Below, piece after piece: positions 3,601 through 4,126 of a stretch of 64,000 nucleotides of DNA; the stretch's first letter is position 1; each line of letters begins with the position of its first letter. The notes beneath the pieces were generated by a model. The model saw only the letters and a list, made by a program, of their open reading frames with translations. It did not search any database and was not told the origin of the DNA. A program made the translations under genes and the position numbers. Source of the stretch: Prochlorococcus sp. AG-409-B13 (GTDB taxonomy: Bacteria > Cyanobacteriota > Cyanobacteriia > PCC-6307 > Cyanobiaceae); NCBI GenBank assembly GCA_003216035.1, contig QCJM01000001.1, positions 62,001 to 126,000 on the forward strand, given 5' to 3'.

Positions 3601-4126
3601 TTGGAAAGGAATCTCACCGAAAACGCCGAGGCGTTCGGCTCAATTGAAAGGCAATCTACAGATGAATGCTGGACCCTTAAAAACTTGGCAGAAACAATTG
3701 CCCTTGGCAAAGCCCTTACACATAAGCTGCCTCAATTGAAATTACTTTTGATTGAAGGGCCATTAGGAGCTGGTAAAACATCCCTTGTAAAAGGAATAGG
3801 CAGCAGCTTGGGCATTATTGAACCAATCACAAGCCCTACTTTTTCTCTTGCCCAGCACTACCCTTCAGGGGCCCCCCCCCCTAATCCATCTCGATTTGTA
3901 TAGATTAGATGACCCACAAGTAGCTGATGAACTTTTTCTTCAAGAAGAGGAAGAAGCAAATGCAATCGGAGCACTTATGGTTATTGAATGGCCTGAGCGT
4001 CTAGGACTTAGCTTGCCAGAAGCTTGGCGACTAAAGTTGAAGTTTGAATCTGCACCTAATAAAGGCAGATTCGCTCAACTAAAATCTCCTTACTTAACCG
4101 CCAAAAATTCTTCAACCTGCAAATGA
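3601..4126 (+). pseudogene. tsaE: tRNA t6A biosynthesis ATPase TsaE, frameshifted in a C10 run
   Basis: TsaE is the ATPase of the complex that makes threonylcarbamoyl-adenosine on tRNAs. The first part has the Walker A motif IEGPLGAGKTSLVKG and the family motif SPTFSLAQHYPSG. At 3868-3881 the sequence is GGGG followed by ten C; the frame then ends at a TAG after PPPNPSRFV. One C fewer restores LIHLDLYRL and VIEWPERLGL, both TsaE motifs, and an intact protein of about 174 residues. So the gene is +1 shifted exactly in a slippage-prone tract: a sequencing error, a length-variable tract, or a gene decoded by slippage. The start is TTG 3601, preceded by an in-frame stop and AGGTGA at 3592. The 3' end overlaps the sugar kinase gene by 37 bases. 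Confidence 0.85.
3872..3881 (+). repeat. Ten-base C homopolymer inside tsaE
   Basis: A run of ten C directly after four G. The tsaE reading frame is correct with nine C and broken with ten. Such tracts are prone to replication and transcription slippage and also to sequencing error. Confidence 0.9.

Follow-up and report, generated by a model that had tools for sequence, protein, structure and literature searches.

A one-base frame break in tsaE at a GGGG-C10 tract of a draft Prochlorococcus assembly, very probably a technical length error

TsaE (YjeE; PF02367) serves as the ATPase in the TsaD-TsaB-TsaE complex that makes t6A in bacteria; this modification is almost universally required, Streptococcus mutans being an exception (PMC7718258). 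The gene described here, located in the window (the whole stretch of 64,000 nucleotides that was analysed), shares with this family the Walker A motif, the HLDLYRL and EWPERL segments and the syntenic location, flanked by ahcY and a sugar kinase gene, but differs by a one-base frame break as assembled. Regarding other systems in which a coding frame meets a long run, the phase-variable poly-G/C contingency loci of Neisseria, Campylobacter and Helicobacter likewise have a G/C run of at least nine within a coding frame; however, tsaE is a housekeeping gene, its relatives conserve no long run and there is no evidence of switching. Programmed frameshifting and transcriptional slippage, as in prfB, dnaX and IS elements, also involve two overlapping frames jointly encoding one protein, whereas tsaE has no conserved slippery site and carries a G/C run instead of an A/T run. 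Meanwhile, the homopolymer artefacts of single amplified genomes (SAGs), produced by MDA or WGA-X, Illumina sequencing and SPAdes, share with this locus the one-base change in a long G/C run, its singleton occurrence, the otherwise intact gene and the hits on other essential genes of the same assembly, and no difference from them was observed in the assembled sequence.

The split tsaE frame and its relatives

The tract at positions 3868-3881, GGGGCCCCCCCCCC, was read directly in the sequence and consists of GGGG (3868-3871) followed by ten C (3872-3881), lying on the forward strand over the codons Gly-Ala-Pro-Pro-(Leu) of the TsaE alignment, within the conserved segment G-x-x-P-L-[IV]-H-L-D-L-Y-R. 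The upstream half of tsaE (3601..3903, forward strand) has a TTG start and 100 amino acids as assembled, bears the Walker A (P-loop) motif EGPLGAGKT and matches positions 2-64 of the Pfam TsaE profile (E 1.2e-16), then crosses the C tract and ends with PPPNPSRFV at the stop 3901-3903. The downstream half lies in a shifted open frame of the same strand (3818..4126), where the protein continues from about 3881 with LIHLDLYRL...VIEWPERL, having the conserved HxDxYR as HLDLYR, and matches profile positions 67-121 (E 9.2e-9). As assembled, there is no single continuous tsaE frame, the change occurring at C10, and the two frames together cover the whole domain (positions 2-64 and 67-121 of 128), with no further stop inside either half. 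The claim of an earlier note that tsaE is broken at this tract is thus borne out by two halves matching consecutive parts of the profile across it. The C10 run is unusual for the composition, as about 0.025 C runs of at least ten are expected per 64 kb by a first-order Markov estimate.

The same note had considered that an intact tsaE might exist elsewhere in the genome. None was found in the assembly, which is 72% complete (1.45 Mb in 47 contigs), the two halves being its only matches to the TsaE profile; the remaining t6A pathway genes, TsaD, a TsaB-like match and TsaC, are open. When compared with 16 relative loci, which include a few duplicates from one genome, the differences by codon position were 335/256/706 for the upstream half and 404/204/606 for the downstream half. 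This third-position bias in both halves, without any other stop, suggests that tsaE is conserved as a coding sequence on both sides of the tract and was constrained until very recently or still is.

TsaE is present in 248 of the 251 good genomes of the family, and the earlier proposal to compare tsaE in relatives was followed with members of this family outside the own species and genus. The aligned relatives have one open tsaE frame, and those examined keep the gene at the same syntenic place, so that the break is a singleton and no frame transition is conserved across the orthologues. One relative (G056; L184 852-860) writes the site as GGA ACC CCC CCC CTC, a run of nine C in frame, and at least seven C occur there in 5 of 400 family genomes, those read being in frame, the window excepted. 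As family members also write the x-P-P-L codons with C runs, the long run found here is a natural result of coding choice, and the window tract is one base off an in-frame C9. A conserved, length-variable long repeat was not found among the relatives, and the same count of 5 in 400 rules out a conserved long tract acting as a regulatory element. Incomplete matches to TsaE were also seen in G069, G086, G198, G354 and G321. In G354 the two halves are in open frames of equal length (234 codons), looking like one gene, and the matches of G069 and G198 are located at contig starts. A search of viral contigs for the same population, by exact DNA, gave no match.

Breaks at G/C runs in this assembly and in the family

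By sequence, the genome is closest to Prochlorococcus single cells of the AG-363 and AG-409 series, and, judging from these relatives, the fragmentation and the completeness, it is presumably a SAG. The Prochlorococcus SAG data set was generated by MDA or WGA-X, Illumina sequencing and SPAdes, and a benchmark of the workflow gave 3.0 indels per 100 kbp (PMC6122165), a rate corresponding to about 40 indels per 1.45 Mb if this is, as is likely, the workflow behind the assembly. It is also expected that genes having a frame transition as singletons, with homologues, are sequencing errors (PMC3711429). A literature search for single amplified genomes with homopolymer frameshifts returned no match.

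The own genome contains 23 G/C runs of at least eight, and the intragenic runs of eight are nearly all within open frames. Besides tsaE, the gene der, encoding the essential GTPase EngA on the reverse strand, is broken at a G9 run that is one base too long (L152:3132-3140; G000:C2:27131-27139), the KH-like C-terminal domain being read in the next frame. At a G8 run, a methyltransferase gene is likewise thrown out of frame (L135:1501-1508; G000:C13:28202-28209), here by one base too few, the opposite direction to tsaE and der. Consequently, other genes of the same assembly are broken at similar runs regardless of function, and the coding runs with an inferred in-frame length of nine, those of tsaE and the methyltransferase gene, are both out of frame. 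G/C runs of at least nine were also seen right at contig ends in this assembly (G000:C13:37147-37155 of 37169) and in others (G014:C12:41666-41675 of 41679; G020:C32:26-35; G039:C29:136-145), as if assembly often halted at such runs.

For a wider view, G/C runs of at least nine were sampled across the family, in 25 closed genomes and in 41 drafts that are mostly single-cell-like, and were classed as intact coding, broken, or non-coding or edge, the broken candidates being checked by reading and with Pfam. In the drafts, about 12 of the 38 classifiable coding runs were frame-broken, compared to at most 2 of 29 in the closed genomes, an excess in drafts with p about 0.005-0.016 by Fisher's exact test. 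The draft breaks affect 12 different genes in 10 genomes without recurrence, namely purH (L202), priA (L204), an ABC permease (L212), ndhD (L218), an ABC-2 permease (L263), infB (L268), chlD (L275), dapB (L295), trkH (L302), a hydrolase (L303), secD (L308) and the phosphoribulokinase gene prk (L312). In infB, secD, chlD, dapB, purH, prk, ndhD and priA the frame changes exactly at G/C runs of 9-13, and in der and most of the broken sister genes the coding-strand run is a G run. For most broken draft genes the two halves are assigned to one protein by Pfam, the ABC permease and the hydrolase being assigned by sequence reading, as their downstream halves have no Pfam match, and purH being reassigned by hand to broken from intact, as called by the script. 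The excess of +1 over -1 changes is partly an effect of ascertainment, as tracts were selected by an observed length of at least nine. The closed-genome candidates are an rsmI-like gene that has lost its C-terminal part (L248) and a case with no family (L359), and four further frame-change candidates (L262, L273, L227 and L355) were judged to be neighbouring genes. As no photoautotroph could have survived without IF-2, Mg-chelatase or phosphoribulokinase, the draft breaks are mostly technical.

Long C runs were also observed in closed genomes. In those of one genus, runs of 9, 16, 9, 9 and 10 C (L231, L232, L234, L251 and L252, respectively, at locus position ~1500) lie ~40-50 bases upstream of an apparent rpoA, encoding RNA polymerase alpha, just after the inverted repeat gacctaaacg...cgtttaggtc. 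Being fixed in place and variable in length, this run may be a genuine leader element of changing length, in contrast to the tsaE tract. In the closed genome G051, two C9-C10 runs 1.6 kb apart (L223 and L246; G051:C1:138800-138809 and 140405-140414) share the surroundings actacaC9-10acacac and appear to represent a repeated element.

Explanations for the ten C

Three explanations had been offered in the earlier note, of which a sequencing error is now strongly favoured, while a length-variable tract is disfavoured by the few relatives with long C, and transcriptional slippage loses ground as well. The break in tsaE very probably reflects a technical gain of one C in a codon run that is naturally C9, as inferred from the assembly. 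In the organism, tsaE would be intact and working, with nine C at the Ala-Pro-Pro-Leu codons, and the ten deposited could have arisen by a polymerase slip in whole-genome amplification, library PCR or sequencing, or else by the assembler choosing the wrong run length; we infer that one of these technical steps slipped. An error is favoured because der is broken in the own assembly and infB, secD, chlD, dapB, purH and prk in its sisters, and closed genomes hardly show such breaks. The tension of a gene that is essential yet broken then disappears, since other indispensable genes also break at G/C runs in drafts.

The main rival is a true mutation of the sampled cell, that is, a real one-base expansion of C9 by slipped-strand mutation in this cell or its recent lineage, which could be lethal, mildly harmful or reversible in the manner of contingency loci. 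G/C runs of at least nine are prone to mutation, only one cell is sampled by a single-cell genome, and t6A is dispensable in at least Streptococcus mutans (PMC7718258); the expansion would have to be recent, as both tsaE halves still look conserved. It is nevertheless unlikely, as similar breaks hit der in this assembly and infB, secD, chlD and prk in the sisters, not all of which would be compatible with life, and are rare in closed genomes. Moreover, the genes affected are mostly housekeeping genes and not surface genes of the sort that usually undergo phase variation (PMC3711429). That tsaE is instead a decayed pseudogene, with an intact copy in the unassembled part, could be proposed given an assembly just 72% complete, but hardly deserves credence in view of the relatives examined, which carry tsaE at this syntenic place, and of the coding constraint on both halves without any other lesion.

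Programmed recoding is improbable. In this case the ten C would be true, and full-length TsaE would arise either through ribosomes shifting +1 at CCC CCC CCU or through slippage in transcription, with a possible feedback on t6A. CCC runs are +1-prone for proline tRNAs, and the frame change followed by a conserved downstream frame has the right geometry. However, the tract is not conserved, the window being the only one seen out of frame among the 5 of 400 family genomes with at least seven C, and the G runs of der and most broken sister genes leave no common mechanism of CCC decoding, so that a ribosomal shift based purely on CCC does not account for these breaks. A scan for proline tRNA genes, whose set bears on +1 shifting at CCC, covered stretches with only one tRNA gene. 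As for transcriptional slippage, bacterial transcription reportedly does not slip on G/C runs, the within-run insertions in E. coli and Buchnera all being located at A/T runs (PMC5574713). Altogether, a recoded tsaE is very unlikely, and still slighter is the chance of its furthest-reaching form, in which C10 is real in wild cells, +1 frameshifting on the proline codons of tsaE couples t6A synthesis to decoding fidelity, and wild Prochlorococcus recode out-of-frame G/C runs in essential genes.

If the ten C were real, tsaE would stand as an uncommon example of a tRNA-modification gene that is essential and needs recoding. As a technical error, the break brings no new biology but a caution for draft single-cell-like Prochlorococcus assemblies: about one third of the classifiable coding G/C runs of at least nine are out of frame in such drafts, and calls of gene loss or pseudogenes at these runs, essential genes included, are not to be trusted as they stand.
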